Origin: an archaeon | Lineage (GTDB): Archaea > Aenigmatarchaeota > Aenigmatarchaeia > QMZP01 > JAFGSV01 | NCBI GenBank assembly: GCA_028279705.1 | Contig: JANQNF010000012.1 | Location: 160,163 to 224,162 of the forward strand | Direction: 5' to 3' | Length of the DNA: 64,000 bases | Part shown: positions 4,248 through 30,827 of the stretch, one piece after another | How the letters are laid out: each line of letters opens with the position of its first letter | How positions within the stretch are numbered: position 1 is the first letter of the stretch | The notes under the pieces: model-generated | Told to the model about the DNA's origin: nothing | The model's database searches: none | What the model saw: the letters and a program-made list of their open reading frames with translations, nothing else | Program-made: the position numbers and the translations under genes

Positions 4248-4967
4248 ATGGCCAGCGTTCTGGATGTGCTGCAGCAGTTACTCTGCTACGGCAACAATGC
4301 CTGCATACAGGAGTTTCAGCAGTACGCCTACAAGCCAATTGAGGGTATATTCTATGCGGTATTCTTCCCGATAGTCTTCATACTCTTGTTCGTGTACATA
4401 GTATCGGGGGCGATCGGTTCGCTGCGAGCAAAGGGGTTTAGGATCCTGATAGCCGTTGCCATATTCGCATTCATAATCATTCAGGGACTGTACCATCTCT
4501 TCCTGGTCCTTGGGCAACTTTGGTTGTATGTACTCATCTTCCTTGGGTTCTTCTGGATGCTCATCCACACTTTCGTTGGAAGACGGGATGATGGCGGAGG
4601 TGCAAAGGGAAGGGTCGCTGGCATGGCTGGTGGCAGTGGAGGAGACTCGAGTGTGTTCGCAAGGGCTGCAAGTAGGGTAAAAAAAGACCTTACCGGTGAG
4701 ACGAAAACACTCGAAAATGAAATAAAGATGGCACTTGAGGAAGTGGCAATAGTCGAGAAAGCTGCAAAGAGAGGCGACGTGCAGGCATGGAGGTTGGCAT
4801 CAGACCTCATATCAAGGCTCCACGAACTCAGAAGGCAGTACCTAGAAATACTCAGGGGACCGATGGGCTTTAGGTTTGGCGGGAAATTCAAGGATGTTGA
4901 AAATGATATGAAAAATGCCATAAAAAAACTCCAGAACGTGCAGGGATCATCCAAGCAGGCGGCATGA
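4248..4967 (+). CDS. Polytopic membrane protein with C-terminal coiled coil
   Basis: The 239-residue product has about three membrane segments (roughly residues 33-55, 64-88 and 90-108). A Gly-rich linker (GGGAKGRVAGMAGGSGG) follows, then a charged helical region from about residue 145 to 235 that looks like a coiled coil. The N-terminus carries two cysteines (LLCYGNNACIQEF). No family is recognised. It begins a tight operon with three more small membrane proteins (gaps of 8, 4 and 53 bases) and precedes the ATPase and T2SF platform genes. A structural or channel role in that machine is inferred. Confidence 0.7.
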   Translation: MASVLDVLQQLLCYGNNACIQEFQQYAYKPIEGIFYAVFFPIVFILLFVYIVSGAIGSLRAKGFRILIAVAIFAFIIIQGLYHLFLVLGQLWLYVLIFLGFFWMLIHTFVGRRDDGGGAKGRVAGMAGGSGGDSSVFARAASRVKKDLTGETKTLENEIKMALEEVAIVEKAAKRGDVQAWRLASDLISRLHELRRQYLEILRGPMGFRFGGKFKDVENDMKNAIKKLQNVQGSSKQAA

Positions 4968-4975
4968 GGTGACTT

Positions 4976-5404
4976 ATGATACCTTTCAGTTTCATGACAA
5001 TGGAGACGCTTCTACCTTTCCTTCTAGTACTCGCTGTCGCTTACGGTGGGATGGAAAGTGCAAATATATTCAAGAACAAGGCGATAAAGGCAGTTGTCGC
5101 CGTCGTCATAGCATTCTTTGGCGTGAGCAGCTATTCCATGGTCCAGTTCATAAACAGCATACTTCCTTACATTGCCGTGATATTCCTGCTCGTTTTCATC
5201 GTGGGATTCGCCAAGAAGTCGCTTAGTGGGAGTGAGAAGGACAACACCATGATAATAGTCATGATGGTGCTCTTCCTCCTTCTTGTAGGATCATTCGCCA
5301 ACGCTGGAGGCGGGCTCGGGCTGGTGCAGTACACGGAGTTTCTGTGGCTCATAGGCGTCGTCATAGTGCTGGCTATAATATTTGCGGCATACAAGATGAA
5401 GTGA
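4976..5404 (+). CDS. Small polytopic membrane protein (four segments)
   Basis: The 142-residue product is almost entirely hydrophobic with about four membrane segments. Its N-terminal pattern METLLPFLLVLAVAYGGM, then a short positively charged loop and VVAVVIAFFG, resembles the 185-residue protein at 5966 (FFQYLFPFLLAFALLYGLM, then ALIAIVLAFF). The two look like diverged paralogues. The ATG follows GAGGTGACTT overlapping the upstream stop, a good ribosome-binding site indicating translational coupling. Function is unknown; the neighbourhood suggests a component of the secretion-like locus. Confidence 0.75.
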   Translation: MIPFSFMTMETLLPFLLVLAVAYGGMESANIFKNKAIKAVVAVVIAFFGVSSYSMVQFINSILPYIAVIFLLVFIVGFAKKSLSGSEKDNTMIIVMMVLFLLLVGSFANAGGGLGLVQYTEFLWLIGVVIVLAIIFAAYKMK

Positions 5405-5408
5405 TGGG

Positions 5409-5912
5409 ATGGCTGCGGGACCGTTTTCTGCAATGACAGAATTCTTAAGCAGCGTCGGGTTCTTCACATACCTCGCCTATTTCCTGCTTCTGATACTGCT
5501 CTACTACCTTTTCAGGCACCTGATAGGAAAGTACGCCGAAAGTGGGCTTGAAAGGCTGCAGAAGAAAACGAGTAATGTGAAAAAGAAGCTCATCTACAGG
5601 ATAATAGGCTTGATAGTGGCTTTCATATGCTTCGTTTTCCTCTCATTCCTGGGAACCTTTGTTGCCGCCATAATAGTACTGGTCGTCGGTGCAATCGTCC
5701 TTTTCATACTGTACGTGGCCGATACGAGGATGCTTTCAGTGATACTTTCGGTTGTGGTCACGGTTGCATCGTACTTCATGTTCGCATCATTTGCCGACAC
5801 GGCAGCCGCATTCATCACGACCGTAGTATTCGTCCTGGCCATCATAATAGTCCTGGTTGCAGCTGTCGTGAAACTCGCGGGTGTAGACGTTCTCTCTTTT
5901 TTCCAAAAGTAG
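5409..5912 (+). CDS. Small polytopic membrane protein with basic cytoplasmic loop
   Basis: The 167-residue product has a first membrane segment at about residues 17-38 and a basic loop (ESGLERLQKKTSNVKKKLIYR). Four further hydrophobic segments run to the C-terminus. It starts 4 bases after the previous stop with GTGATGGG as ribosome-binding sequence. No family is recognised. The basic loop predicts a cytoplasmic orientation between segments 1 and 2 by the positive-inside rule. It is part of the four-gene membrane operon 4248-6523. Confidence 0.7.
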   Translation: MAAGPFSAMTEFLSSVGFFTYLAYFLLLILLYYLFRHLIGKYAESGLERLQKKTSNVKKKLIYRIIGLIVAFICFVFLSFLGTFVAAIIVLVVGAIVLFILYVADTRMLSVILSVVVTVASYFMFASFADTAAAFITTVVFVLAIIIVLVAAVVKLAGVDVLSFFQK

Positions 5913-5965
5913 CATCATGGGCCTTACAGGAAAGGTTTATAAGTGTTATAGGCCAATAAAATGTT

Positions 5966-6523
5966 ATGGGACTATTCGAAACAATGGTTCAGAACATGCA
6001 GAGAATGGAGTTCTTCCAGTACCTGTTTCCGTTTCTTCTGGCATTTGCACTCCTCTACGGGCTGATGCAGTATGTCTTTGGAAAAGAGAAACTAGGTGGC
6101 AGTAGGGTCCATGCACTGATAGCAATCGTCCTGGCATTCTTCGTAATGCTCTACTCCAGCTACAACACGTGGCTGTACACATTCCTGACCAGCGCATCGG
6201 GCGTCTGGCTTGGATTTGCGACAGTCGTGCTCATGTTGGTGCTGGTACTGGCGCTTGCTGGTGTCAACATCCATGACCTTCTTGGCGACGAGAAGAACAA
6301 GTGGATAAAGTATCTGGTAGTACTGATAATAATCTACTTGGTGCTCATGGCAATCCTAGGCCAGGGAGGCCTGTTCTCTAGCTATCTGCCTTACTGGCTT
6401 ACCGGTAGCGACCTGTGGACTGTGGTCTTTGTGATCATAATCATAGGCGTAGTCTTCTGGTTCGTCGGTGGTGAGGACAAGGGCGGCGCTGCTGCTCCTC
6501 CTGAAAAAGGCGGAGACAAGTAA
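5966..6523 (+). CDS. Polytopic membrane protein, paralogue of the 4976 gene product
   Basis: The 185-residue product has about five membrane segments and a short Gly/Ala/Pro- and lysine-rich tail (GGAAAPPEKGGDK). Its first 60 residues share the layout and several residues of the protein at 4976. A TATA-like GGTTTATAAG lies about 28 bases upstream of the ATG, so this gene may also have its own, nearly leaderless transcript. The stop codon is followed by TTTTTCCTTTTTCTCTTATTTT, a T-rich stretch typical of archaeal termination. Function is unknown; it is probably a membrane subunit of the secretion-like machine. Confidence 0.75.
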   Translation: MGLFETMVQNMQRMEFFQYLFPFLLAFALLYGLMQYVFGKEKLGGSRVHALIAIVLAFFVMLYSSYNTWLYTFLTSASGVWLGFATVVLMLVLVLALAGVNIHDLLGDEKNKWIKYLVVLIIIYLVLMAILGQGGLFSSYLPYWLTGSDLWTVVFVIIIIGVVFWFVGGEDKGGAAAPPEKGGDK

Positions 6524-6561: not shown

Positions 6562-7680
6562 CTATTCTTTGGAAGCTTGTGGTGAATACCTCGGGGGCAT
6601 GGCTGACGCAGCTTCCGGCTGCGCTGTCGGTTGTTCAGGAGGTTCGACTTCAGGCGCTTGTGGAAGTGGAGGCTCAGTCTTGGCCTCGTTTTTGGGCGTG
6701 GCAGAAGATTCCTGCGCCTTTGATATCCTGTTGAACTTCTTGACAGAATCCACCATGGGTGCAAGCGAGCTTTTGACAACATCCTCAAGGGAGTCTATCC
6801 TCGCGTTGGTCTCTTCTATACCCTCTTTGAGGTTTGCCATTTCATTCTTGACAGCGCTTAGCTCCTTTGGTGAGCCCCCGCCTTGTGCCTGTATGGCACT
6901 GTTTTTCATGTCACCTGAAAGCTTGTCGATGTTCTCCTCGACCAGCTGCACCCTGCTCATGATGTCCTTCCATTTCTCCTCGGTTATCTCTTCGGTCAGT
7001 TCCTCTATCTCCTTTCTTCTCCTGTCCTTGAGTTCCTTTGCCCTGTCATCCTTTTCCTTTGGAAGCGGCGTCTTTGCAAACGGAAGTGGTTTTGGTTCCG
7101 CTCCGGATGTAGGCGCAGTTGGTATATTGTCATCTATGCTCGACATGAACGAGTCGGGCCCAGCCTTTTTTTCCTTTGGGAACCTGCTCATGTCCATGTC
7201 CAGGTCATCATCGGGAAGATCGTCGTCTGCTCCCCAGTTGGTCGGTGCGAACTTGTTCTGCTCACCAAACTGTGGTCGCGGGGGTCCAAACGCTGGTGCA
7301 GGTGGCTGTGCCTGCTGTTGCGGATGTTGAGGAACATGTGGTTGTGGTACTGCAGGTTGAGGTGTGACGGGAGCGGCCGGTTCTGCATGCGGTATTGGAG
7401 CCTGCTGCGGATGGGCAGAAGCGGGCTGCGGGGCAACTGCAGGCTGTGCCTGCGGGTGGGGTGGCGCTGGCTGCCCCTTTGAGCCTGCACCAGTTCTCAT
7501 GGCATCCTTCATCGCCCTGTCGACTTCGATAGGGCTGTGCCCTTCATCCTTGAGCCTTTTGACAATTTCGGGTTCCGAAAGTCCCTGTGAAGAAAGAGAC
7601 ATCACTTTTTGAGTGGGTATTCCCGTACCGCCAGGAGGTCCGGCGGGCTTGCCGCCGCCTTTCTTTCCGAATCCTAACAT
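6562..7680 (-). CDS. Pro/Gln-rich coiled-coil protein of the secretion-like locus
   Basis: The protein (about 372 residues) starts MLGFGKKGGG and has a small helical motif near residues 30-60 (QGLSEPEIVKRLKDEGHSP, UBA-like). A long Pro/Gln/Ala-rich disordered region (about 70-150) follows, then an acidic patch (DDDLPDDDLDMDM) and a charged coiled coil (about 200-325), ending in a Pro/Ala-rich tail. I prefer the ATG at 7680; the track start at 7689 is possible. The layout recalls soluble coiled-coil adaptor proteins of archaella (ArlC/D/E-like) without convincing sequence identity. It is co-directional with the coiled-coil gene just upstream (7728-8120), and both diverge from the ATPase gene. 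Confidence 0.65.
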   Translation of the reverse strand: MLGFGKKGGGKPAGPPGGTGIPTQKVMSLSSQGLSEPEIVKRLKDEGHSPIEVDRAMKDAMRTGAGSKGQPAPPHPQAQPAVAPQPASAHPQQAPIPHAEPAAPVTPQPAVPQPHVPQHPQQQAQPPAPAFGPPRPQFGEQNKFAPTNWGADDDLPDDDLDMDMSRFPKEKKAGPDSFMSSIDDNIPTAPTSGAEPKPLPFAKTPLPKEKDDRAKELKDRRRKEIEELTEEITEEKWKDIMSRVQLVEENIDKLSGDMKNSAIQAQGGGSPKELSAVKNEMANLKEGIEETNARIDSLEDVVKSSLAPMVDSVKKFNRISKAQESSATPKNEAKTEPPLPQAPEVEPPEQPTAQPEAASAMPPRYSPQASKE

Positions 7681-7727
7681 AATCAGCATCGACCACTTTA
7701 TATTTCTCTTTCTCTCTACTTAAATCT

Positions 7728-8120
7728 TTACTGGCCCTTCTGCTCTGACATCTGGTTTCCAAGTTGGGTTAGTATTGGATCGACAAGCTTCAGCTTCTCC
7801 TCGACCCTTTTCATATCACTCTTCTTCACAAGAAACTGCAGCTGCTTTACGACTTCTTTAAGCGTGTTCTGTACAGTCGTCACCTTCTCATCCAGTGTCT
7901 TTATTTTCACATCCAGGTCCTTCCTTGCGTTTTCGAGCACTTCCAGCTTGTTTGCCACAGTCTCGTCCATTGAGCTTATACGGTTAGTGAGAAGCCTTTC
8001 CCTCTGCTCGAGGAGCCGGAGCCGCTTGGTGTTGTCATTTACCCTCCCAACGATCTCGTTTACTACGGGAACCGCGCTTCCTGATCCCTTCTTTTTCTGC
8101 TCTTCACTGAAAACTGGCAT
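7728..8120 (-). CDS. Small coiled-coil protein
   Basis: The 130-residue product is almost wholly coiled coil with heptad-like leucine/valine spacing (RLRLLEQRERLLTNRISS through LKEVVKQLQFLVKK). Such small coiled-coil proteins accompany FlaI/FlaJ-type machines in archaea; a link to ArlC/D-like proteins is an inference from context and shape only. It is transcribed divergently from the ATPase gene (ATG 8206) across an 85-base region with AT-rich promoter-like sequence. Confidence 0.65.
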   Translation of the reverse strand: MPVFSEEQKKKGSGSAVPVVNEIVGRVNDNTKRLRLLEQRERLLTNRISSMDETVANKLEVLENARKDLDVKIKTLDEKVTTVQNTLKEVVKQLQFLVKKSDMKRVEEKLKLVDPILTQLGNQMSEQKGQ

Positions 8121-8205
8121 ACCAAATCACTCCGGGTATTTTTATTTAGAGTCTAACAATATAAAATATTGCACAGCGCTTTAAATAGCATACAAGGTCG
8201 TGACT

Positions 8206-10452
8206 ATGGCCGTAGGTGATTATACTTATGACGAGAATGAGGAAAAGCTCAAGATAAACTATCTTGGTTCCATTTTTGGCGCGAGCATAGAGGATTTTGC
8301 CGAGTGCATGGCAGACGTCTTCGACAAGATACTGGAAGTAAAAAACGTCAACACAATAATTCTCACAAAGGACAGGGAGTACGAGTACGGCCCGGACCAG
8401 ACGAAGATGCTCGTGGAGATAGCAAAAGTAATAGAGGATGTCGTACACGAGAGGCTGATGTCGAGGGTAAAGATCTCCGACAACCTGCAAAGAAAGCTCC
8501 TCCCGGAAATGAACGCGAGGGTGCAGGACATTGTTTTAAACACCCTCAGAAGGGACCCTGTAGGAGCATACGTGGAACTGGTCAGGGAGACAAGGCGCGT
8601 CAGGATAAAGATGAAGAGTACTCGCTACAAGAGCGCCCACGATTTCTATGGAGATTACCTCAAAAACGTTCTTGACGTCATAAAGACAAAACTAGACAAT
8701 ACCCAGCTCATCCAGGTGGCAAAGCCCCACATCGCAGGCTACCACATAGGAGACAGGTCCATATACAGGGAGATATTCGTCCCAAGCGTGAGGCCAAACT
8801 TCATGCTCACAAGGTACATGATAACGCCCCCTGAGAACGGCAAGTCCGTCAAGCGCTACAACGTGGGCGACATAGAAATAGAGATATTCAAGCTCACAGA
8901 CACTGCCGAATACTTCTACTACGTGCTCCCCCCCGAATTCGTGCTAAGCGAGGAAAAGTACGCAGTTCTCGACGCGGCAAGAAGATACATGGCAACCCAC
9001 AAGCCAAAGGAAGCAGAATTCGTCAAGACAGGAAGGATAAGGGAAGTCTTCTTTAACATAGGGCGCGACATGATACGCGAGGTCGCAGACCACCAGAAGG
9101 TCTACCTCACAAACAAGGAGCTTGAGCAGCTTGCAACCATACTCACAAGGTACACTGCAGGTCTTGGCGTGCTGGAGCTTCTCCTTGCAGACGAGCAGAT
9201 ACAGGACATTTACGTCAATTCGCCTGTGGAATCCCAGCCCATACTAATCACGCACGGAGAATTCGAGGAGTGCAGGACGAACCTCATACCAACTCAGGAG
9301 GACGCTGAAGCATGGGCGACCAGGATGAGGATGGATTCAGGAAGGCCCCTTGACGAGGCAAACCCCGTCCTCGACACTGACATGGGCGTTCCCGGAGGGC
9401 AGGCAAGGTTCTGCATAATCACGAAGTCATTGTCACCGCACGGGCTCGGGTTTGCCATAAGGAGGCACAGGGACAAGCCATGGACGTTCCCTCTTTTCAT
9501 CAAGAGTAAAGCCATCACGCCTCTGGCTGCCGGTGTCCTTTCGTTCCTTATCGACGGTACTGCGAGCATGCTCGTCGCCGGCGGCAGAGGTGCAGGGAAG
9601 AGCAGCATGCTTGCAGCAATGATGCTTGAACTACTTCCAAAGACCCGCGTGGTGACTATAGAGGACACTCTCGAGCTCCCAACCGAGCAGCTGCGTGCCA
9701 TAGGCTATAACATAGAGCGACTGAAGTCCAGATCCGTGCTTACAATGGTCGAAACCGAGGTCGCATCGGACGAGGCGCTGAGGACCGCGCTGAGGCTCGG
9801 CGACTCTGCACTGGTTCTCGGTGAGGTGAGGTCCACCGAAGCCAAGGCGCTCTACGAGGCCATGAGAATCGGCGCACTGTCAAACGTCGTTATGGGAACC
9901 ATACACGGCGAATCCGCCTACGGTGTATTCGACAGGGTCGTAAACGATCTTGAAGTGCCAATGACTTCCTTCAAGGCAACGGACATAATCCCGATATGCA
10001 AGACCCTTCGTTCTGCTGACGGACTCCACAGGTTCAGGAGGATGACAGAGATCACCGAGATCAGAAAGAAGTGGGAGAAGAATCCCGAAAAGGAAGGTGG
10101 GTTCGTAAACCTTTTCGAATACTCGTCAAAGGAAGATGCCCTGAAGCCGACAGACACCCTGGTAAACGGTGAGTCCGAGACCCTAAACAGGATAGCAAGC
10201 TATGTGAGGGAATGGCACGGTGACTGGCAGTCGGTCTGGGATAACATAAACCTGAGGGCGAACATAAAGAAGGCCATGGTCGACATGAGCGAGAAGCTGA
10301 AGAACCCGGCTCTCATGGAGGCAGAATGGGTGACAAAGTCCAATTCACAGTTCCACCTGCTTTCAGAGATGGTGAGAAAGGAAACTGGGACAGTTGATTC
10401 AAAGCGCGTCTACGAAGACTGGCTCCACTGGTTCAAGAGCAAAGTAAGGTAA
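8206..10452 (+). CDS. Type II/IV secretion (VirB11/FlaI-like) ATPase
   Basis: This is the motor ATPase of a pilus- or secretion-type machine. The 748-residue protein has an N-terminal unique part and a conserved C-terminal ATPase core. That core contains Walker A GGRGAGKSS at about residue 459, an Asp-box region VVTIEDTLELP, Walker B-like LVLGEVRS at about residue 535 and a His-box GTIHGESAYG. These are the motifs of the GspE/VirB11/FlaI superfamily. I use the ATG at 8206; the track's GTG at 8200 lies in the leader. It is followed after 38 bases by the double T2SF membrane protein, the usual motor/platform pairing. It is longer than archaellum FlaI (about 550) and distinct from the intein-bearing pilus ATPase at 38067. 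Confidence 0.93.
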   Translation: MAVGDYTYDENEEKLKINYLGSIFGASIEDFAECMADVFDKILEVKNVNTIILTKDREYEYGPDQTKMLVEIAKVIEDVVHERLMSRVKISDNLQRKLLPEMNARVQDIVLNTLRRDPVGAYVELVRETRRVRIKMKSTRYKSAHDFYGDYLKNVLDVIKTKLDNTQLIQVAKPHIAGYHIGDRSIYREIFVPSVRPNFMLTRYMITPPENGKSVKRYNVGDIEIEIFKLTDTAEYFYYVLPPEFVLSEEKYAVLDAARRYMATHKPKEAEFVKTGRIREVFFNIGRDMIREVADHQKVYLTNKELEQLATILTRYTAGLGVLELLLADEQIQDIYVNSPVESQPILITHGEFEECRTNLIPTQEDAEAWATRMRMDSGRPLDEANPVLDTDMGVPGGQARFCIITKSLSPHGLGFAIRRHRDKPWTFPLFIKSKAITPLAAGVLSFLIDGTASMLVAGGRGAGKSSMLAAMMLELLPKTRVVTIEDTLELPTEQLRAIGYNIERLKSRSVLTMVETEVASDEALRTALRLGDSALVLGEVRSTEAKALYEAMRIGALSNVVMGTIHGESAYGVFDRVVNDLEVPMTSFKATDIIPICKTLRSADGLHRFRRMTEITEIRKKWEKNPEKEGGFVNLFEYSSKEDALKPTDTLVNGESETLNRIASYVREWHGDWQSVWDNINLRANIKKAMVDMSEKLKNPALMEAEWVTKSNSQFHLLSEMVRKETGTVDSKRVYEDWLHWFKSKVR

Positions 10453-10490
10453 TTATCCAACATTAAAGAACTTTGCTACAATTATTTAAC

Positions 10491-12599
10491 ATGTCCTTGT
10501 TTGGCGGAAAAAAGAAAGATGATGTACCGCAGGCTCCCCGTAACATAGCAGGCGGTCCGGGCATGGGAAGGAGGATAGACATAACCTCCAGGGAGTACAG
10601 GCTCTTTCGAAAGACAGAAAAGCAGAGTTTTTCTTGGTATGAGATCATCGCCCGTTTTGCAGGAAGCATAATGGACATAAGCTTTGACAAAAAGACCACA
10701 GACGACATGAAGGCCGCAATAGATTTCACAGGACTTAGGATAAAGCCAAACTCCCCTGTATCGCTTCTCATACTGAGTACGATAATCTTCTCTTTCGGCG
10801 CGGGATTTCTTTTTGCAATAAGGATGATAACAAGTCCCTTTGGCATAGTCATAGCAGCTGTGCTTGGGCTCGCCTTCGGATTCTACCTTTTCAGGTACCC
10901 GATAAGTCTAATGAAATCAATGCGAATAAAGGCAAGCTCCCAGGTGGTCCTTGCAATACTCTACATGGTCGTCAGCATGAGGATAACGCCCAACATAGAA
11001 AAGGCGCTAAAGTTCACGTCGTCAAACATATCGGGAGTGCTTGCATGGGACATGCGAAAGCTCCTCTGGGACATAGAGATGGGAAAATACTACTCTGCAA
11101 ATGAAGCCCTCGTAGACTACATAGCCAAGTGGAAGCCCGAAAACGAGGAGTTCTCAGAGTCCCTTCGCCTCATAATGGAATCGCAGAGGCAGATCCCGGA
11201 AAAGGGAGAGAAGACTCTTGACGAGGCACTGCGCGTGGTGCTTGAAGGTACAAAGGTCAGGATGAAGCATTACGCGCAGGACCTTCAGATGCCAGTCACT
11301 GTGATACACATGATGGGAATAGTGCTTCCGATACTCGGATCCGTCATGGCCCCGATGGCTGCAGTCTTCATGTCAGACGTCGTCACGCCCTGGCATTTCC
11401 TAATAGGATATGACGTCGCACTTCCGCTGATACTCATCTGGTTCATCAACAATACGTTAAGCAAGCGTCCAGTGACCTTTTCCAAGGTCGACGTTTCCAA
11501 GCACCCAAGCCTTCCACCGAAGGGAAGTCTCCTTGTCAAGACAGGAAAGAGTAAGGTGGCAATACCTGTGCTGCCGATCGCCCTTCTTGTGGGACTTCTC
11601 ATAATGCTTCCTTCCATCATGTACTTTGCAGAGCATCCGGACTACCTGTTCGTGATGCAGGAGGTTAGCGAGGACGGCGTCCTGGGAGAGCCTGAGCTGA
11701 GCGATCCCGATCCGCAGCTTTCCCTTATCATGTCCTTGCTACTCATAATAGGCGCAGGCACAGGATTTTCCATATTCTTCATACTGTCCAATGTGCAAAC
11801 GACGAGGATAGAGGACTCGGTATACAAGATGGAGTCGGAATTCGAGCTTGCGCTCTTCCAGCTTGGAAACCGCATATCAGGCGGCACACCGCTTGAGATA
11901 GCAATAGAGAGGGCAAACGATGACGTAAAGGACCTTGAGATCTCGCGCATGTTCAACATAATAATGCGAAACATGCGTAACTTCGGCATGACATTCGAGC
12001 AGGCGCTCATGAACCCCCAGAGCGGCGCTCTCAGGTTCTACCCAAGCAAGCTCATACAAAACGTCATGAGGACGATAACCGACACTGCAAGAAAGGGAGT
12101 GCAGTTCGCATCAGAGTCCATGCTTACCGTGTCTAAGTACCTAAAGAACGTAAGGGAGACGCAGGAATACATGCGAACGCTGCTTTCGGAAACCACAAGC
12201 AGTATGCAGTTCCAGGCATACGCCATGGCACCGCTTGTAAGCGGCCTCATAGTCGCGATGTCGCAGGTAATAATACAGGTACTCGTCTTCCTTGGAGGAA
12301 GGCTAAACGAGATGGGATTCGACGAGACGTTTGGGATAGACGCAAGCCAGATACTGGGCACCACGACGTCCATAACATCCACCATGTTCCAGTTGATAGT
12401 GGGAGTCTACCTGATAGAAGTCATAATCATCCTTGCGATGTTTGTCACAAAGATCAACAGGGGAGACGACAGCGCCATGCAGTGGGCGCTTGCAGGCAAG
12501 ATGATAATAGTCGCGATAATAATCTACGCTCTCGTGACGGTCGGAAGCACCATGATGTTCGGCAGTATGATAGAAGGTGCCATGCGGACGCTCACGTGA
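10491..12599 (+). CDS. T2SF-domain membrane platform protein (TadC/FlaJ-like)
   Basis: The 702-residue integral membrane protein has two GspF/TadC (T2SF) domains. A first pair of membrane segments near residues 80-135 is followed by a cytoplasmic helical domain containing VVSMRITPNIEKALKF. Further segments follow near 255-305, 355-375 and 420-445, then a second cytoplasmic domain (LGNRISGGTPLEIAIERA) and C-terminal segments. This is the FlaJ/TadB-C layout, which anchors the ATPase and moves pilin subunits through the membrane. The track start is a TTG; the ATG at 10491 (MSLFGGKKK) follows a TATA-containing AT-rich leader. Its partner is the ATPase immediately upstream. Confidence 0.92.
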   Translation: MSLFGGKKKDDVPQAPRNIAGGPGMGRRIDITSREYRLFRKTEKQSFSWYEIIARFAGSIMDISFDKKTTDDMKAAIDFTGLRIKPNSPVSLLILSTIIFSFGAGFLFAIRMITSPFGIVIAAVLGLAFGFYLFRYPISLMKSMRIKASSQVVLAILYMVVSMRITPNIEKALKFTSSNISGVLAWDMRKLLWDIEMGKYYSANEALVDYIAKWKPENEEFSESLRLIMESQRQIPEKGEKTLDEALRVVLEGTKVRMKHYAQDLQMPVTVIHMMGIVLPILGSVMAPMAAVFMSDVVTPWHFLIGYDVALPLILIWFINNTLSKRPVTFSKVDVSKHPSLPPKGSLLVKTGKSKVAIPVLPIALLVGLLIMLPSIMYFAEHPDYLFVMQEVSEDGVLGEPELSDPDPQLSLIMSLLLIIGAGTGFSIFFILSNVQTTRIEDSVYKMESEFELALFQLGNRISGGTPLEIAIERANDDVKDLEISRMFNIIMRNMRNFGMTFEQALMNPQSGALRFYPSKLIQNVMRTITDTARKGVQFASESMLTVSKYLKNVRETQEYMRTLLSETTSSMQFQAYAMAPLVSGLIVAMSQVIIQVLVFLGGRLNEMGFDETFGIDASQILGTTTSITSTMFQLIVGVYLIEVIIILAMFVTKINRGDDSAMQWALAGKMIIVAIIIYALVTVGSTMMFGSMIEGAMRTLT

Positions 12600-12635: not shown

Positions 12636-15215
12636 ATGACAATAATGGGCTTGGGTTCTACAGGCCAGCTCATAATAGTTATAGCTATGGTGTCACTTGC
12701 TTTGGGTGGGATGACCCTGATGAGGGGCAACATCATGGAGATTATCTATGGAGCTTGTGAGAAGAACCCCACGCTGCCGCACTGTGATTATGAAGATATA
12801 AAGGTCAAAAGCTTCCAGAACGCTGAGTATTCAGTGGAGGCACTGGTGTGCGCGGTGAATACCGTCCTCACTGGTTCTGAATGGGCAGGATTCAGCAGTG
12901 ACGGAAAGGATGTGAAGTGTTCCGATTATTACGTTGAGACTGCGGATGCAGCTGGGGAAATTCCACCCGACGGTTCCGGCTGGAACAAGGTGACCCAGTA
13001 CATAAAGAAACATGATGACTGCAATTCCAAGTGCATTGCCGATCAGGAAGAACTTTGCGAGGAATTCAAGACAGCCTGCAGGGTCACGGGCGGGAGGTAT
13101 GTCGAAAGGGACACGCGTATCATTGACCTTAAGTCGGACAAGTGCGAATGTGACATCTACATACCGGACAGGCCTCTTGTTAATTGCCAGCCAGGCGAAG
13201 ACGACGATGGCATGGAATGCCAAGTTTACAATTTCCAGCTTCCACAGGAAATAGATTCGCTAGAAAAGTGGATAAACTATTACGGGGATCCCCAGTATCT
13301 CGTGTACTGGCAGAAGTTCCCCCTGACTGAAGATACGTGGACGCTCGACGAGGACGCCCGTCTGGGATACACGATAGCCATTATAGGCTTTTCCGTACTT
13401 CCTTTCGGGAAGATGGCGAGGTTATTTGGCAAGGCGGGCTACAGCGCTGCATCGAAAGCAGCCGTTAACGGTGCAAGTAGATTAAAGTCATTCTTTACAA
13501 AAACCAAGGCGTCAGGTTTCGTTTCCACAAGTACGGCCAAGGCTGAAATAAGATATATAACAAAGGAAGCGGCAGAGGAGGTGCAAAAAGCTGTGGCAAA
13601 GGACATGGTAGAGAAGTTCACCGTAAATGGAATATTCAAGGAGGGTGGAAAGAGGCTCCTCAAGCCTTCGACTTATATCAAGGGCGGAATAGGTATAGGT
13701 ACCCTGACGGTCGTGGACATAGTTGACAGCTGGCTTGGCAAGCTGAGCGGCGAATATCCTAACAGGATGCTTCTCAAGTACGCTGGAGAAAAATACCCCG
13801 AACCTTACCCGCTTGAAGAAGAATTGTCTTCTCCGGTGTTCCTCAAATACCGTGGTGGTGCCCTGTCAAGTGATACGGTAACGCTCATGCTAGCTTCACC
13901 ATGCTACATAAACGAGATGACCGTAAGGGCCGCCGACGGGGCGCTCTGTGAGCAGTTCATCTGGGAATCTACAGACAAGGGCGACGTCATCAACTGCATT
14001 GGCGCCTCAGAAGGAGGGGAGAAGTATCCCTCCTGTTATGAACCTGATAAATATCTCAAGAAGGGGGGTGGCAACAAGCTAAAAGAGGACGCCGAAGATC
14101 CTGTGATAGGATACGTCTACAGTTTCAGGGAGGAGATACCTAAATATGTTGAAATAGGCAACGGCAGCGCCACCGTCGTAATTTCAGGTATAGGTACTGA
14201 TGGCGCTGAAGGTGAGTTTACAGGCGGCGTCGCTTTCAAGTTCAACGCAAGAGACGGCAGACATTTCGATGACGCTTATCTCATATTCGACACCGAGAAA
14301 GGCATAGAAAAGATACCCGTAAGGCCCATAACAGCTGAGGAGGCAAAATCGGACAATTATCATTCAAGAGGGGAAGATCACAAAGGCCAGTTAGGTGCGG
14401 CAGATTACAAATCTGCCAGGATAGAATTCTTTTTATATGACTCTGGAGATGAGAGGAATGCACCGGGATGTGGCGTGACTGATGAAGGTATTGAGAACTT
14501 GGCCAAGTTCAATCCTTCCTTCTTTAGCCAAGACAAAAAACCGAGTTTTAGTGAACTTGATGGTGTCGGATGTCTGGGTTCTTTTGCTGTCGTGGAAAAA
14601 TGCGATAAGAACGAATCCGACGATATGTGTGATCTCATTAAAGACCTTAAGTTCAGAAGGGAAGCTGACCTCAACCCGGGTACCTTTTACAGAAACGGCC
14701 TTTTCAGATACGGCGACAACTGGACTATTAGTTGTGTGCTATCTGAGCCGGATGAAACCATTTTTCTTGACGTTGAATACTGGGTAGAATTGAGCGATAT
14801 GAATGGTGATAGTTTCATAGACAAGATAGGAATAAACAGTGGTGGCGGATTAACTGGTGGAAGAAGGCAATTTATAGAGTTCTATGACCAAAACGATAAC
14901 TTCAGAACATTCAACATGAAGAATTGCCACCTTCCAAAAGCGGTGATCGTGGAAGACGTCGTGAAGAGGGATGACATCGTGGGTGAGGAAAACTACTGCT
15001 ATGCAAGCCTCACGTCCGGTAAGAGAACACTGAGGATAGTTGGAATGACTCTGTCAGCAGTTGCGATCACCGTAACCGGGATAGTTAGTTTTGGCGGCTC
15101 GTTTGCAGTACTTGGAGTTTCAGCAGGTACCATAGCTACTGGCGCAACTGTTGCGGGAGCAGCGGTGGATGCTATAGCTGTACCAGACACCAAATGGCCA
15201 AGGTCAGGAAAATGA
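12636..15215 (+). CDS. Large Cys-rich membrane-anchored protein of the secretion-like locus
   Basis: No family is recognised for this 859-residue protein. It has an N-terminal hydrophobic segment (LIIVIAMVSLALGGMTLM, residues 11-28) and a Cys-rich presumably extracytoplasmic region (about residues 40-200 with at least 14 Cys). More hydrophobic stretches follow near residues 247 and 350, then a long mainly beta region, and the C-terminus has Gly/Ala/Val-rich hydrophobic segments (about 805-850). Paired cysteines suggest disulfides outside the cell. A second in-frame ATG at 12645 is an alternative start. The gene follows the T2SF gene by 36 bases and starts the series of exported proteins. A surface or channel component is inferred. 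Confidence 0.65.
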   Translation: MTIMGLGSTGQLIIVIAMVSLALGGMTLMRGNIMEIIYGACEKNPTLPHCDYEDIKVKSFQNAEYSVEALVCAVNTVLTGSEWAGFSSDGKDVKCSDYYVETADAAGEIPPDGSGWNKVTQYIKKHDDCNSKCIADQEELCEEFKTACRVTGGRYVERDTRIIDLKSDKCECDIYIPDRPLVNCQPGEDDDGMECQVYNFQLPQEIDSLEKWINYYGDPQYLVYWQKFPLTEDTWTLDEDARLGYTIAIIGFSVLPFGKMARLFGKAGYSAASKAAVNGASRLKSFFTKTKASGFVSTSTAKAEIRYITKEAAEEVQKAVAKDMVEKFTVNGIFKEGGKRLLKPSTYIKGGIGIGTLTVVDIVDSWLGKLSGEYPNRMLLKYAGEKYPEPYPLEEELSSPVFLKYRGGALSSDTVTLMLASPCYINEMTVRAADGALCEQFIWESTDKGDVINCIGASEGGEKYPSCYEPDKYLKKGGGNKLKEDAEDPVIGYVYSFREEIPKYVEIGNGSATVVISGIGTDGAEGEFTGGVAFKFNARDGRHFDDAYLIFDTEKGIEKIPVRPITAEEAKSDNYHSRGEDHKGQLGAADYKSARIEFFLYDSGDERNAPGCGVTDEGIENLAKFNPSFFSQDKKPSFSELDGVGCLGSFAVVEKCDKNESDDMCDLIKDLKFRREADLNPGTFYRNGLFRYGDNWTISCVLSEPDETIFLDVEYWVELSDMNGDSFIDKIGINSGGGLTGGRRQFIEFYDQNDNFRTFNMKNCHLPKAVIVEDVVKRDDIVGEENYCYASLTSGKRTLRIVGMTLSAVAITVTGIVSFGGSFAVLGVSAGTIATGATVAGAAVDAIAVPDTKWPRSGK

Positions 15216-15219
15216 TATT

Positions 15220-15369
15220 ATGGAATTCACGCTAAAGACAATGGTCGCAATCATAATCCTTATCGTCACATTGCTTGTTATATCGACCGTTATCCTCGAC
15301 TGGCACGAAATGCTGATGAACTGGCTGAATATGGCATTCGCCATGTTTAATGAATTCCTGGGACTTTAG
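15220..15369 (+). CDS. 49-residue single-span membrane (pilin-like) protein
   Basis: This reading frame was too short for the ORF track. It starts 4 bases after the previous stop and encodes MEFTLKTMVAIIIL, a long hydrophobic segment, then DWHEMLMNWLNMAFAMFNEFLGL. The single N-terminal membrane helix followed by an amphipathic tail resembles a minimal pilin or pilin-like subunit. Position in the operon and absence of any other reading frame in the gap support it being real. It is the same length as the small protein at 16592. Confidence 0.55.
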   Translation: MEFTLKTMVAIIILIVTLLVISTVILDWHEMLMNWLNMAFAMFNEFLGL

Positions 15370-15428
15370 CAGGCCTTAAACGTAAAAACACGTTATATTT
15401 TTAAGGTCGCAGGGTCAATATTATATTC

Positions 15429-15770
15429 ATGAAGGGGTTATCGCTGACGCTTACGATTGTCATAATAGCCATAGTTTTGCTTGTGACCGCACTGGTGATA
15501 ATGACGATATTCGGAAGCCAGATGGCCCAGGTCATCGGAGTTCTCAATCCATGGTCATCATCGATGCTTGAAAGTAGCCTATGTCAGCAGAAGTGTGCCA
15601 CATGGTGCCAGCTGAATCCTGACAAGTCAGGACCTACTGGAGGATGGGGTGCATTTGAGGTAGAAACCAGTGATGGAAAACCAGAAAATTGCGATACTGT
15701 TATGGCGAGGGCAGCAGGCGATGATGTGGGAAATTGCAAATGTCTAGGGTTTAAGCCCAAAGACGATTAG
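15429..15770 (+). CDS. Pilin-like Cys-rich protein
   Basis: The 113-residue product begins MKGLSLTLTIVIIAIVLLV: a short basic leader ending KG, then a hydrophobic helix, as in archaeal class III (type IV pilin) signal peptides. The mature part has six cysteines (SSLCQQKCATWCQ, ENCDT, NCKC) that could form disulfides outside the cell. A TATA-like TATATTTTTAAGG lies about 30 bases upstream, so it may begin its own transcript. The processing enzyme is not in this window. Assignment as a pilin-like subunit is by layout. Confidence 0.65.
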   Translation: MKGLSLTLTIVIIAIVLLVTALVIMTIFGSQMAQVIGVLNPWSSSMLESSLCQQKCATWCQLNPDKSGPTGGWGAFEVETSDGKPENCDTVMARAAGDDVGNCKCLGFKPKDD

Positions 15771-15826
15771 AATACCACCACTGCACGAATCATGATTTTT
15801 ATTCCATCCTGTTCTAATTATTTATC

Positions 15827-16567
15827 ATGAGAGGAATCTCCGAGACCGCCATGATATTCCTGATAGGTACGCTTGTCATGCTTATGATAACTACTTACAC
15901 CTTTGCAAACAGGGGAATTGATACAAATTCTACGGCACTCGATGGTAGGTGGAATCAAAACTCCTTCATTGACCCGCAGTATGACACTGTCATATATTCA
16001 CAGTCCGAGCCGCAGGTAACAGAAGAGCAGGTGGTGGCTTACGTGCGCGATATAGGGGGAGACCGTCTGAAGACCAGGGGAAAGGTTTTCCATGAAATGG
16101 GTGTCAGGTACGACATCGACCCTGCTTTCGGAGTTGCAGTCTCGCAGAAGGAGACAACACTCGGTACTAACACGTGCCAGAACATGAGCCAGTCATGCAA
16201 CAACTTCTTTTGCATGACTTATAACGCTACGAAATCCGCTGGCATTGTAGCAGAAAAACGGTGGGGCCTGGACAGGTACTGGGCGTGCTTTGAAAATATG
16301 GATGCAGGCATTGAAGCATTCTACGTCTACATTAAAGAGAAATACGTCCTTTACATACATCCGCAGATAAATGAACCCCAGGACACTATATCCAAGATAG
16401 GATGTGCACCAGGGACAGGACTCACGGAGCACTGTTATTGCGTTGGTGAGGAGGAAGGAGTCCCCTACTGCCACAAATGGCTGTACGGCCAGGGAAGCGT
16501 CCCAGACATTGTAGAGAAGATAAGAAACTACGAATTGGAGCAGGAACCTGTCAGCATCTCAGCTTAA
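15827..16567 (+). CDS. Membrane-anchored lysozyme/glucosaminidase-like protein
   Basis: The 246-residue protein begins MRGISETAMIFLIGTLVMLM (RG leader then hydrophobic helix). Its outer domain (about residues 65-170) resembles bacterial glucosaminidase/lysozyme-like domains. It has DIDPAFGVAVSQKETTLGT with a candidate catalytic Glu near residue 109, then CNNFFCMTY, like the NNLFGI segment of GH73-type enzymes, and a FENMDAGIEAFYVYI helix. Such enzymes cleave the glycan strands of bacterial murein. Cysteines around the core suggest disulfide stabilisation. It lies among pilin-like genes and upstream of two other cell-wall hydrolase genes. The catalytic assignment is inferred from motifs. Confidence 0.7.
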   Translation: MRGISETAMIFLIGTLVMLMITTYTFANRGIDTNSTALDGRWNQNSFIDPQYDTVIYSQSEPQVTEEQVVAYVRDIGGDRLKTRGKVFHEMGVRYDIDPAFGVAVSQKETTLGTNTCQNMSQSCNNFFCMTYNATKSAGIVAEKRWGLDRYWACFENMDAGIEAFYVYIKEKYVLYIHPQINEPQDTISKIGCAPGTGLTEHCYCVGEEEGVPYCHKWLYGQGSVPDIVEKIRNYELEQEPVSISA

Positions 16568-16591
16568 TAAATGATTTTGTCAAATATAGTT

Positions 16592-16741
16592 ATGGGTCGT
16601 ATGAAAGGGGTGCTGCTGGGACTTAACGTTTTCAAGATATTGGGCTTTGCAATCGCGTTCGTTGCCATTATCGTGGGAATAAACATAATTATGACGCTCA
16701 TCTCCGGAGCCGGAAATACAAATGTAAATCTATTCACATGA
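16592..16741 (+). CDS. 49-residue single-span membrane (pilin-like) protein
   Basis: This frame was too short for the ORF track. It encodes MGRMKGVLLGLNVFKILGFA and a continuous hydrophobic helix, then a short polar tail (GAGNTNVNLFT). An internal ATG at 16601 would give MKGVLLGLN, an even more leader-like start. It lies in line with the other small exported proteins, 24 bases after the lysozyme-like gene. It may be a minor pilin or membrane scaffold. Confidence 0.5.
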   Translation: MGRMKGVLLGLNVFKILGFAIAFVAIIVGINIIMTLISGAGNTNVNLFT

Positions 16742-16783
16742 GACCGATTCCCACTTTTAAGATTGTATAACTAATAGATATAG

Positions 16784-17383
16784 ATGAAGAAAGCCGTTTT
16801 CGGGGACCTCAAAATGTTCTTTTACGCATTCGCGTTGATCATTGTCATTTTCCTTTTCAGCTCATTCACGCTTAACGCATCTACGTTACTGGAGGACCCA
16901 TGTTGGAGGAAAGTTGGTCTTTCCCTTGGAAAGGTCGAGAACCCGCAGTCCGGTGTTCCGGAGATCGTCATTGATGGTGAATGCCTGAAAAAGATGGTCT
17001 TCACAACAGATAACCGCACATGCGAGGCAACCTGCAGGGAGCACGGCAATGAGGATGATACCGTTGACTGCATACAAAAGTGCAGGGGTGTAAAGGAAGG
17101 GCACAGCATGGTTATTGCGCTCCCAAAAGAAGGTAGTTTTGAAAAGGCCAGTGAAGAGAGGGATCCGAGATGGATGGGCTGGGGGAGTCCGTACGTTTTC
17201 ATCATAAACTGCCAGATCACATCCATCACAGAGACCATAGAAGAATGCACTGCTGTCGGCGGAGATTGGATATGCTTGCCCGAATCAGACGTCTATGAGA
17301 GAATTTACAAGATAGCGATCAATAAAAAAACAAAGGAAAGCAGAGCCTGTGAAATTGTGGATTGGGCCACAGAAGATACATGA
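16784..17383 (+). CDS. Exported Cys-rich pilin-like protein
   Basis: The 199-residue protein has a basic N-terminus (MKKAVFGDLK), a membrane helix (residues 11-28, MFFYAFALIIVIFLFSSF) and an extracytoplasmic domain with about ten cysteines (DPCWRK, ECLKK, TCEATCREHG, DCIQKCRG and others). It is not recognised as a known family. A TATA-like element (TTTTAAGATTGTATAACTAATA) precedes the ATG closely, suggesting a near-leaderless start. The layout matches its neighbours: one anchor, then a disulfide-rich head. Confidence 0.65.
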   Translation: MKKAVFGDLKMFFYAFALIIVIFLFSSFTLNASTLLEDPCWRKVGLSLGKVENPQSGVPEIVIDGECLKKMVFTTDNRTCEATCREHGNEDDTVDCIQKCRGVKEGHSMVIALPKEGSFEKASEERDPRWMGWGSPYVFIINCQITSITETIEECTAVGGDWICLPESDVYERIYKIAINKKTKESRACEIVDWATEDT

Positions 17384-17402
17384 ATTTGATGGTGTTGTTC
17401 CT

Positions 17403-17840
17403 ATGGAAGCCAACAGGAAGATCATGGCACTCGCCTTCGCCCTCATTATGACAACGTTCTGGTTCATAATGGTCGCGAATTTCACAAACCCCTTTCTTCA
17501 CCACAGCTTGGCAAAAACCGATGACAAGATAGCCCTTTACGTAGATGCCTTTTCCGTCGTCGAGGAGGGCGAGATAAAGATACCTCTGGGCGAGGGTACG
17601 GTTCTTGATATCAGGATAAACTACGAGAAGAAAGAGGACGATGAAAGAGATTACGATATAACAACAGAAGGCTGGTACGCGGTAGTCAATTACGACATGG
17701 GTGCTGGGGGTATAAAGAGTGCAAGCAGGATAAACACATATCCTCTTGACATGAATTTCGAAAAGATGTTCTTCGCGCCAAACGACATATGCGTGACAAA
17801 GTCTAAAGACACGGTCCTAGCGGAGGTCAGGGAATGTTGA
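17403..17840 (+). CDS. Membrane-anchored exported protein
   Basis: The track frame begins inside the previous gene. The ATG at 17403, after GATGGTG, gives MEANRKIMALAFALIMTTFW with a single N-terminal membrane helix. The remaining 115 or so residues look like a beta-rich extracytoplasmic domain (DKIALYVDAFSVVEEGEIKI). No family is recognised. It overlaps the following gene by 7 bases, indicating coupled translation. The general plan equals that of the other pilin-like proteins in this operon. Confidence 0.65.
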   Translation: MEANRKIMALAFALIMTTFWFIMVANFTNPFLHHSLAKTDDKIALYVDAFSVVEEGEIKIPLGEGTVLDIRINYEKKEDDERDYDITTEGWYAVVNYDMGAGGIKSASRINTYPLDMNFEKMFFAPNDICVTKSKDTVLAEVREC

Positions 17841-18691
17841 AGGGTCAGTTCGAGCTTGACATGGAATTTCCAATGGCAACCATGTTAGCCATGCTGACAA
17901 TAATACTGCTTATAGGAGTAGTAGTGTTACCGTCTTTCAATCTCGTTCAGAACGTTTATGGTTCAGAGGGTGACATAAAGTCGGTCGAGTTCTCAAATTT
18001 CGTCAAATTCAAACTTGAGAATAACCTTGGTGATGGCGACGGGCTCAAGTACGATAAGATCACTTCCTTCACCGAGGGAGAGCTTTCCAGTTTTGGCCTG
18101 GCTGACAACTACGTGACCATAAAAAATCTCGCTTCAGGTGAGCTGTGGGAATACGGTAAAGAGGAAAGAAGAAACCAGCACACGGTCTATACGACGATAG
18201 AAAAGAAGTATAATATCATTGATGATGAGAAAGAAGTCGTCATGAAAGGAGACTCTGAATACTTAGTCCACGTTTATGCTATCGACAAGAGCACGGTCAT
18301 TGACGTGTACTCTGATTACATCTGTGATCAGAAAGGAAGAAAAGAAGGGTTCCCCGGAAGGTACGTAATGATTGGTTGCAGTGAAATGGAAGAAAGCGCC
18401 GGTGAGAACATGGGCACGCATCATCTTCTAGGCAGTGTCATTTCTCCAGTGGTTAATCAGGCAAAGCCGTATCTGATCCAGCGCCTGGTCCCTGGAAGTG
18501 ACATGACTGCCGGCGACATTGTTCCCCGCGGTTCTTCGCTCGGCGACATTGAAGATTGTGAAAATCATCGAAGAGGAAAGGTATGCATCAGGGTCATAGG
18601 AAATCATGTTGATCCCGCAAGCATATTCGTGGCACTGAAAAACAACGCGGAATTCACAAGTTATGCAAGGATGGTTGACAGTAATGTGTAA
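17834..18691 (+). CDS. Membrane-anchored exported protein with KG/Glu leader
   Basis: The 285-residue product starts MLKGQFELDMEF and has a membrane helix at about residues 15-36, then an extracytoplasmic domain of unknown family. The KG followed by Glu three residues later is also seen at 15827 (RGISE) and 18693 (KGGIE). This fits processing by a prepilin peptidase. A strong ribosome-binding site GGAGGTCA lies just upstream, within the overlap with the previous gene. It is probably a pilin-like subunit. Confidence 0.65.
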   Translation: MLKGQFELDMEFPMATMLAMLTIILLIGVVVLPSFNLVQNVYGSEGDIKSVEFSNFVKFKLENNLGDGDGLKYDKITSFTEGELSSFGLADNYVTIKNLASGELWEYGKEERRNQHTVYTTIEKKYNIIDDEKEVVMKGDSEYLVHVYAIDKSTVIDVYSDYICDQKGRKEGFPGRYVMIGCSEMEESAGENMGTHHLLGSVISPVVNQAKPYLIQRLVPGSDMTAGDIVPRGSSLGDIEDCENHRRGKVCIRVIGNHVDPASIFVALKNNAEFTSYARMVDSNV

Positions 18692-18692
18692 A

Positions 18693-19727
18693 ATGAAAGG
18701 CGGGATAGAGATGGCAGGAATGATCATAATATCCCTTGGTCTGCTTGTGATAGTGATGGCTTTCCACTCGTTTCCCATACTAAACAAGACGTTCGATATA
18801 AAGTCAGAAGCTGACGTTTTTTTGGATTTCAATGACGACACTGGAAGGATACTGCCGATACTAAAGTCCACTGAGGATGGTGTTTCACACACCGACGTTT
18901 TTGCGTGCATGCTGTCCGGTTCATCTGATTGCGGCATGACAGAAGACCAGCTTTCCAGCCTCGCCGAAGACTTCGATACAGAACTACTGCTTTTCATGGA
19001 AGACGGTGAAGTGAAAAACTACGGTGACAAGAACTTCGGCGATGTCTTCAGATCCGAGATACCACTTCCAAACGGAAAGACCGGGACGATAGGCGTAGTT
19101 GTCAGGATAAGGTCTTCGACAAGCAGGAGCCCGGTTGGTGCTGACTGGTTATGGCCGATTGATACAGGAAGTGGCATAACCGTTCGGCACTGTTACGGTG
19201 AAAAGAGGACGAGCAAGATAAGCGGAAGACCGTATGAACATTCGGGAGTCGATCTTGGGGGAAAGCTCATGGACCCGATTTACGCTGTCGATGACGGTGC
19301 AGTGCTGTACACATGTGACGGGGCAGAGGACGGTGCGGTAAGCGAAAACGCGACAAGAGTATGCCACGGTTACGGTAACATGATTCTGGCAGAGCACGGA
19401 AACTACTATGTAAGATACAGTCATCTGAAAAAGATGGCCGACGGAATAAAGCCCGGTACCAGATTAAGGAAGGGCGAAGTGATAGGGTACATGGGAAATA
19501 CTGGATATTCGTTTGGCGTCCACCTTGATTTCAAGGTCTACACTTACAATCCGGGTAAGTGGGGATACAACGCAAACATTGATCCCCTGTGCATGTACAC
19601 GAAAGAATACTTAACTGATGTAGTGGACTTAAAGTACGCAGAAGGTGACCCCGACTGTCAGAAATCAAGGCTGTGTGCAAAGACGAGCCCTGGAAGCTAC
19701 ATAGTCCAGATAGAGGAGGAAATGTAA
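18693..19727 (+). CDS. Membrane-anchored M23 (LytM-like) metallopeptidase
   Basis: M23 peptidases cleave peptide cross-links in bacterial murein. The ATG at 18693 (MKGGIEMAGMIIISLGLLVI), just after the previous stop, is preferred over upstream ATGs inside it. A single membrane helix is followed by a linker domain. A C-terminal M23 domain runs from about residue 148 to 290, with YEHSGVDLGG (HxxxD zinc ligands, about residue 182), VRYSHLKKM (His, about 242), LRKGEVIGYMGNTGYS and GVHLDFKV (about 274). In most active M23 enzymes the last motif is HxH; here it is HLD, so zinc binding would need Asp or activity may be altered. The next gene starts after one base. Confidence 0.88.
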   Translation: MKGGIEMAGMIIISLGLLVIVMAFHSFPILNKTFDIKSEADVFLDFNDDTGRILPILKSTEDGVSHTDVFACMLSGSSDCGMTEDQLSSLAEDFDTELLLFMEDGEVKNYGDKNFGDVFRSEIPLPNGKTGTIGVVVRIRSSTSRSPVGADWLWPIDTGSGITVRHCYGEKRTSKISGRPYEHSGVDLGGKLMDPIYAVDDGAVLYTCDGAEDGAVSENATRVCHGYGNMILAEHGNYYVRYSHLKKMADGIKPGTRLRKGEVIGYMGNTGYSFGVHLDFKVYTYNPGKWGYNANIDPLCMYTKEYLTDVVDLKYAEGDPDCQKSRLCAKTSPGSYIVQIEEEM

Positions 19728-19728
19728 A

Positions 19729-27622: not shown

Positions 27623-27972
27623 GAAGCAAAAGGAAGATAGTAAGAGAATTCACGGAGAACTTCTTAGCCGGAGGCTTCCTGGTTGCAATCGCCCTGTGGA
27701 TAGCATACACCTCCAGTCCAGTGATAGGTGGATTGATAGCAGGCCTTCCGTTGAGATTTGCGGTCACTTGGATTCTGGGTGCCGTCAGGAAAGGTCCTGA
27801 ATTTGCGCAAATGATGGCAAGGGGAAGCCTGAGAGGGATGACCGCGAATATAATATCTTCACTGACGCTTTTCTATTCACTGTTCGTACTGGGATTTGCA
27901 GCAGCGTTCGCTCTGACACTGGTTGTTTGCTTTGTAATAATACTCGTACTGAGGTTTACCTTTCCAGAATGA
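27619..27972 (+). CDS. Small membrane protein, second of a tandem paralogous pair
   Basis: The track lists this frame from 27055, but the first 188 codons overlap other genes. The real start is the ATG at 27619 overlapping the upstream stop (MRSKRKIVREFTENFLAGG). The 117-residue protein is a diverged copy of its neighbour with LAGGFLVAIALW, VIGGLIAGLPLRF and two further hydrophobic segments. Function is unknown; a heteromeric membrane unit is likely given the pairing. It overlaps the convergent AMP phosphorylase gene by 17 bases. Confidence 0.65.
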   Translation: MRSKRKIVREFTENFLAGGFLVAIALWIAYTSSPVIGGLIAGLPLRFAVTWILGAVRKGPEFAQMMARGSLRGMTANIISSLTLFYSLFVLGFAAAFALTLVVCFVIILVLRFTFPE

Positions 27973-30771: not shown

Positions 30772-30827
30772 CAAGACACCAATATACATATATCGCAAAT
30801 CTGAAATAAAAGTTAATCCGGAGTGGA

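Follow-up and report, generated by a model that had tools for sequence, protein, structure and literature searches.

Paralogous five-helix membrane proteins at a type IV filament-like motor locus of DPANN archaea: candidate subunits of one membrane complex

The archaeal type IV pili, the archaellum and the Tad systems, with their FlaI-FlaJ and CpaF-TadC pairs, have been described by Makarova et al. 2016 (PMC4858521). For the 'dark matter' islands of DPANN pili, Makarova et al. 2019 (PMC6393860) proposed that the uncharacterized signal-peptide proteins encoded there are pilins of diverse kinds. Two conserved T4P-like loci in cluster-2 DPANN were reported by Hamm et al. 2024 (PMC11291902), the second of which (locus 2) comprises CpaF, TadC and two coiled-coil proteins. 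The window analyzed here, i.e. the whole stretch of 64,000 nucleotides from a member of Aenigmatarchaeota, carries a locus (Table 1) in which a secretion ATPase (E), a membrane platform (F) and two coiled-coil proteins (cc1 and cc2) are accompanied by small polytopic membrane proteins, which we refer to as the m family. E, F, cc1 and cc2 are found together also, for example, in L094 and L103 (Nanohaloarchaea) and in L126 and L128 (Woesearchaeota), and this gene set, as well as the lineages that carry it (Nanohaloarchaeota, Woesearchaeota, Aenigmarchaeota and others), agree with the description of locus 2 in the main text of Hamm et al. Matched by gene content, E, F, cc1 and cc2 of the window very probably correspond to locus 2, and our finding of the m family is partly anticipated by that published locus. 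The same main text, however, contains no mention of the m family, its triplicate order or the m0 gene, and it likens the coiled-coil proteins to viral attachment proteins, while cc1 and cc2 look cytoplasmic (see below).

Table 1. Genes of the m0-F locus and of the region that follows it (window positions; TM, transmembrane helix)
Feature	Position	Strand	Description
m0	4248..4967	+	239 aa; 3 TM, followed by a long C-terminal half that looks cytoplasmic
m1	4976..5404	+	142 aa; 5 TM; member of the m family, with a weak affinity to subfamily 'c'
m2	5409..5912	+	167 aa; 5 predicted TM; diverged member of the m family
m3	5966..6523	+	185 aa; amphipathic helix at the N-terminus plus 5 TM; member of the m family, with 'b' as the nearest subfamily
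cc1	6562..7689	-	375 aa, soluble; N-terminal domain small and helical, then a proline-rich linker and a coiled coil in the C-terminal part
cc2	7728..8120	-	130 aa; soluble coiled-coil protein
E	8200..10452	+	750 aa; secretion ATPase of the VirB11/CpaF/FlaI type, extended at the N-terminus by ~210 residues
F	10473..12599	+	708 aa; diverged TadC/FlaJ-type membrane platform
Post-F train	12636..23340	+	eight proteins, each with a TM helix at the N-terminus; candidates for display or export

The locus resembles the archaeal type IV pili, the archaellum and Tad in its homologous motor ATPase, its diverged platform and the proteins with N-terminal TM helices encoded downstream, but its E and F lie at a large distance from the curated FlaI and TadA models, it has the five-TM m paralogs and the m-cc1-cc2 block in addition, and no major pilin was identified. 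It also shares with the 'dark matter' islands the presence of uncharacterized genes around FlaI and TadC homologs; being polytopic proteins with five TM helices, the m proteins do not fit as the pilins proposed for those islands.

The assignment of E is straightforward at the level of the superfamily: it matches the T2SSE family of Pfam (E-value 1.7e-14, 53.7 bits, with a cut-off of 24.9) and the structures of the archaeal GspE (2oap), CpaF and FlaI, while its match to the FlaI model (E-value 2e-40) is nonetheless far below the curated cut-off, and the match to the TadA model is likewise well below. The named relatives of E in the ATPase alignment come from Aenigmatarchaeota, Nanohaloarchaeota and Woesearchaeota, the closest ones all from Aenigmatarchaeota, to which phylum the window is thereby assigned. 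The window's F protein matches T2SSF only below the cut-off (E-value 0.13), but T2SSF was found in 8 of 11 F orthologs (best E-value 3.1e-7), and by its sequence F is assigned as a diverged member of the T2SF/TadC/FlaJ platforms. A prepilin peptidase (PF01478, 30.9 bits, above the cut-off) is encoded elsewhere in the window's genome. In four loci (L101, L102, L105 and L123) a single E gene is flanked by two F-like platform genes, partly in opposite orientation. The cc1 protein opens with a small conserved helical domain (SSQGLSExEI..). Neither a signal nor a TM helix is present in 91 of 92 homologs of cc1 and in 87 of 88 homologs of cc2, and both proteins therefore look cytoplasmic.

Successive genes from m0 to the beginning of the post-F train are separated by gaps of 8, 4, 53, 38, 38, 79, 20 and 36 bases. 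Since m3 and cc1 face each other, and cc2 and E point away from each other, the locus should comprise at least three transcription units rather than a single operon. A TATA-like sequence, TTTATAAG, can be read by eye shortly upstream of the start of m3. The sequence-only reading had placed m1 and m3 next to the ATPase and T2SF genes within one operon; the adjacency is borne out in many genomes, but the operon is not, since the minus-strand genes cc1 and cc2 intervene. Conserved in many genomes next to a secretion ATPase and a T2SF-like platform, the m pair sets this machine apart from standard pili.

The open reading frames of m1 and m3, which the sequence-only reading had singled out, were confirmed with the limits and lengths given in Table 1. 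Their local alignment scores 117, compared to 52 +/- 10 for shuffled sequences, and that of m2 with m3 scores 88; in both cases none of the 1000 local shuffles, which preserve the hydropathy profile, scored as high. Profile-profile comparison of the ortholog sets agrees with this result (m1-m3: 59, with 32 as the highest of 60 column-shuffled controls; m2-m3: 61, with a column-shuffled maximum of 26). The direct profile-profile comparison of m1 with m2 gave no significant score, and the relationship of these two proteins thus runs via m3. A phmmer search with m3 alone retrieved the m1 and m2 orthologs of the relatives, and iterated profiles seeded with m1, m2 and m3 converge, with 139 ORFs common to all three. 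The family consensus is F...L...GF..fLPFLL.fAIvYGlL...iFG...Is...AFF, with the corresponding motif reading LFPFLLAFALLYG...ALIAIVLAFF in m3 and LLPFLLVLAVAYG...AVVAVVIAFF in m1. We conclude from these comparisons that m1 and m3 are true paralogs and that m2 is a member of the same family. The paralogy proposed earlier for m1 and m3 therefore stands above shuffled controls, with the motif then quoted being slightly idealized, and to speak of a duplicated pair was an understatement, as the family has three members here, which form an old three-subunit set. The m0 protein, orthologs of which occupy the same place in the loci of relatives, is probably a remote relative, judging from its profile-profile score against the m family (43, with a column-shuffled maximum of 29). 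A search of the window's own genome with the m family gave only two strong matches, both in the m0-F locus. The m2 protein exceeds its family orthologs (~110 aa, 3 TM) by ~50 residues and two predicted TM helices; an internal duplication of a TM pair as the source of the extra residues is unsupported, with 114 of 1000 local shuffles scoring as well.

The mean numbers of K+R in the loops of the m family, from the N- to the C-terminus, are 0.7, 2.9, 0.4, 2.4, 0.7 and 2.6. This positive-inside bias predicts a topology with the N-terminus outside, five TM helices and the C-terminus inside, loops 1 and 3 also being inside; the signal-peptide-like N-termini of several members (L113, L069-L071) are consistent with an outside N-terminus. 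Charged residues are almost absent from the TM segments, and none is common there. Structure prediction, which had been proposed as a check, was carried out for m1 and m3 with AlphaFold2 (m1: pLDDT 82.5, pTM 0.61; m3: pLDDT 81, pTM 0.54), and the two models share the same layout of helices, the second TM helix being short and the third long. Foldseek searches revealed no significant match of either model in the PDB, nor of the m3 model among viral models, where matches to holins had E-values above 1. At the sequence level, the m family has no match in the PDB and none above any curated cut-off in Pfam, NCBIfam or PHROGs, the scattered Pfam matches (e.g. DUF2070) being weak and below the cut-off. 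These results agree with the earlier statement that m1 and m3 match no known family; membership in an unrelated family such as small transporters, which would have spoken against a role in the machine, was not found in Pfam, NCBIfam or PHROGs.

Members of the m family were found in 148 of 156 genomes of Aenigmatarchaeota (39/39 of the high-quality ones) and in 230 of 236 sampled genomes of the Woesearchaeota phylum, mostly in three copies, i.e. in 378/392 sampled genomes of two DPANN phyla; as the survey covers these two phyla, 'DPANN-specific' is used below with reference to that sample. A record titled as Micrarchaeota (L075, G164) was rejected as an outgroup, its match positions being equal to those of the phylum member G069. 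Most loci with enough sequence exhibit the gene order mmm> <cc1 <cc2 E> F>. Three m genes run toward cc1 in 19/19 of the Woesearchaeota-group loci fetched. The two coiled-coil genes share their orientation in 81 of 82 loci; E points away from cc2 in 80 of 81 and in the same direction as F in 68 of 69. In some genomes m is unlinked from E and F; where E is away from m, it is usually found elsewhere in the genome (G308, G198, G368), while in one m-bearing genome (G338) E was looked for and not found. Ten of the 14 genomes that lack m also lack the cognate ATPase, but missing contigs could lose both at once, and the co-absence may be partly due to this.

In a tree of 175 m proteins, which includes the three positions of 24 Woesearchaeota-group loci, these positions form three groups, with 3 label changes among the 72 genes. 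In the Woesearchaeota phylum position thus corresponds to orthologous group, as expected of an old set of hetero-subunits, and a recent lineage-specific duplication of m is rejected for this group by the tree. The loci outside the Woesearchaeota group are noisier, with 21 label changes. When the 15 three-copy loci among them are scored against the three subfamilies of the Woesearchaeota group (a, b and c), the order c-a-b fits 28 of 45 genes (15.0 expected), and none of 20,000 within-locus shuffles fits as well, a test that overstates the case, because the order was picked after the scores had been seen and the loci are related. Taken at the level of sequences, these patterns suggest that the triplication of m may predate the split of the two phyla.

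Within the post-F train, a Peptidase_M23 domain (18663-19727) is followed by PKD, YkuD and Amidase_3 domains (19729-23340), and the protein at 15827 has a weak match to Glucosaminidase, below the cut-off; domains of the bacterial cell-wall type thus occur at 15827-23340 on archaeal proteins with an N-terminal TM helix. At the same place, relatives from the genus encode M15 or M23 domains and an SLT match close to the cut-off; one relative has a C-type lectin. These murein-type domains suggest, as far as domain content can tell, that the targets in the window's genus may be bacterial. Some of the post-F proteins have, by eye, KG or RG before the hydrophobic stretch. Outside the Woesearchaeota group, 27 of 33 loci encode at least three proteins with N-terminal TM helices within 7 kb after F. 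In the two checkable Woesearchaeota loci, no train of this kind was seen near F. Amidase_3 was rejected as a conserved part of the system, being present in just 4/155 genomes, which indicates a fixed core with a changing set of exported proteins. Further downstream (27956-31652), adjacent genes resembling AMP phosphorylase, form III RuBisCO and ribose-1,5-bisphosphate isomerase of the AMP pathway were noticed by eye. The assembly of the window's genome has 1.9 Mb and a low reported contamination (0.35), and those of three relatives from the genus are about half that size (0.7-0.9 Mb).

On balance, it appears somewhat probable that m1, m2 and m3, probably joined by m0, make up a single heteromeric membrane complex as its homologous subunits, and that this complex is dedicated to a DPANN-specific type IV filament-like machine. 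This reading draws on the paralogy above controls, the near-universal presence in two DPANN phyla and the conserved gene order, on the correspondence between position and orthologous group, the co-absence of m and E and the cytoplasmic appearance of cc1 and cc2, as well as on the loop-charge topology and the N-terminal-TM trains after F. Counted against it are the genomes in which m is unlinked from E and F, the one in which E was not found, the missing trains in the two Woesearchaeota loci, the failure to identify a prepilin-type major subunit and the moderate confidence of the m1 and m3 models. The m subunits would form a ring or scaffold in the membrane around the platform F, with their cytoplasmic loops and tails, together with the cytoplasmic half of m0, docking the soluble cc1 and cc2, which in turn might couple the E hexamer to the membrane. 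Driven by ATP, E and F could then assemble or display the N-terminal-TM proteins, including the downstream cell-wall enzymes, at the cell surface or on a neighboring cell.

The main rival is the proposal of the sequence-only reading that the m subunits make up a translocation channel, which might work in the manner of VirB6 from type IV secretion systems (T4SS). The m proteins share with VirB6 the topology of an outside N-terminus, five TM helices and an inside C-terminus (PMC6120205), Rickettsiales carry four or five VirB6 paralogs in tandem (PMC7648143), the m genes adjoin an ATPase of the VirB11 superfamily, and the downstream proteins need to act outside the cell. The m proteins are, however, smaller and have no large periplasmic (extracellular) loop, their membrane segments are almost devoid of charged residues, none of 122 members matches VirB6/TrbL in Pfam (E-value <=0.01), no VirB6 match was found among PDB sequences or folds, and no other T4SS core genes, VirB4 and VirB8-10 among them, were seen in the window. 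The identification of m as a VirB6 is thus unsupported by sequence or fold; m may work in a VirB6-like manner, and we consider a channel rather doubtful overall.

Would the m proteins instead act directly on membranes at the site of host contact, as holin-like, fusion or remodeling factors that the motor just positions? They are small and very hydrophobic, with an amphipathic N-terminal helix predicted outside, and 'Ca. Nanohaloarchaeum antarcticus', from a lineage that has the locus, is described by Hamm et al. as entering and lysing its host (PMC11291902). The holins among the viral fold matches are at chance level, however, and paralogs fixed in position are more in line with the subunits of an assembled structure than with effectors, so that we regard this role as improbable. 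Even less credible is the view that m belongs to an unrelated family, with a housekeeping or transport function, and is just a neighbor of the machine: the near-universal presence of m, its occasional separation from E and F and the weak DUF2070-type matches would fit such a role, but m is linked to cc1 in all the Woesearchaeota-group loci fetched and to cc1, cc2 and E in most others, it is co-absent with E, and no transporter family scores above any cut-off.

In a bolder reading, which we consider unlikely as a whole, the m triplet may be the membrane core of a previously unrecognized contact-dependent delivery machine, which would pass or display lytic and binding proteins onto other cells, would have evolved from a type IV filament motor and would go back to the ancestry of two of the largest DPANN phyla, with the downstream enzymes suggesting bacterial targets in this genus. 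The cytoplasmic appearance of cc1 and cc2 bears on the published likening of the coiled-coil proteins of this locus to surface attachment proteins. The m family is a concrete candidate part of the machinery that lets DPANN archaea attach to other cells, feed on them or invade them, and it supplies defined subunits that can be tagged, localized or purified in cultivated nanohaloarchaea and nanoarchaea.
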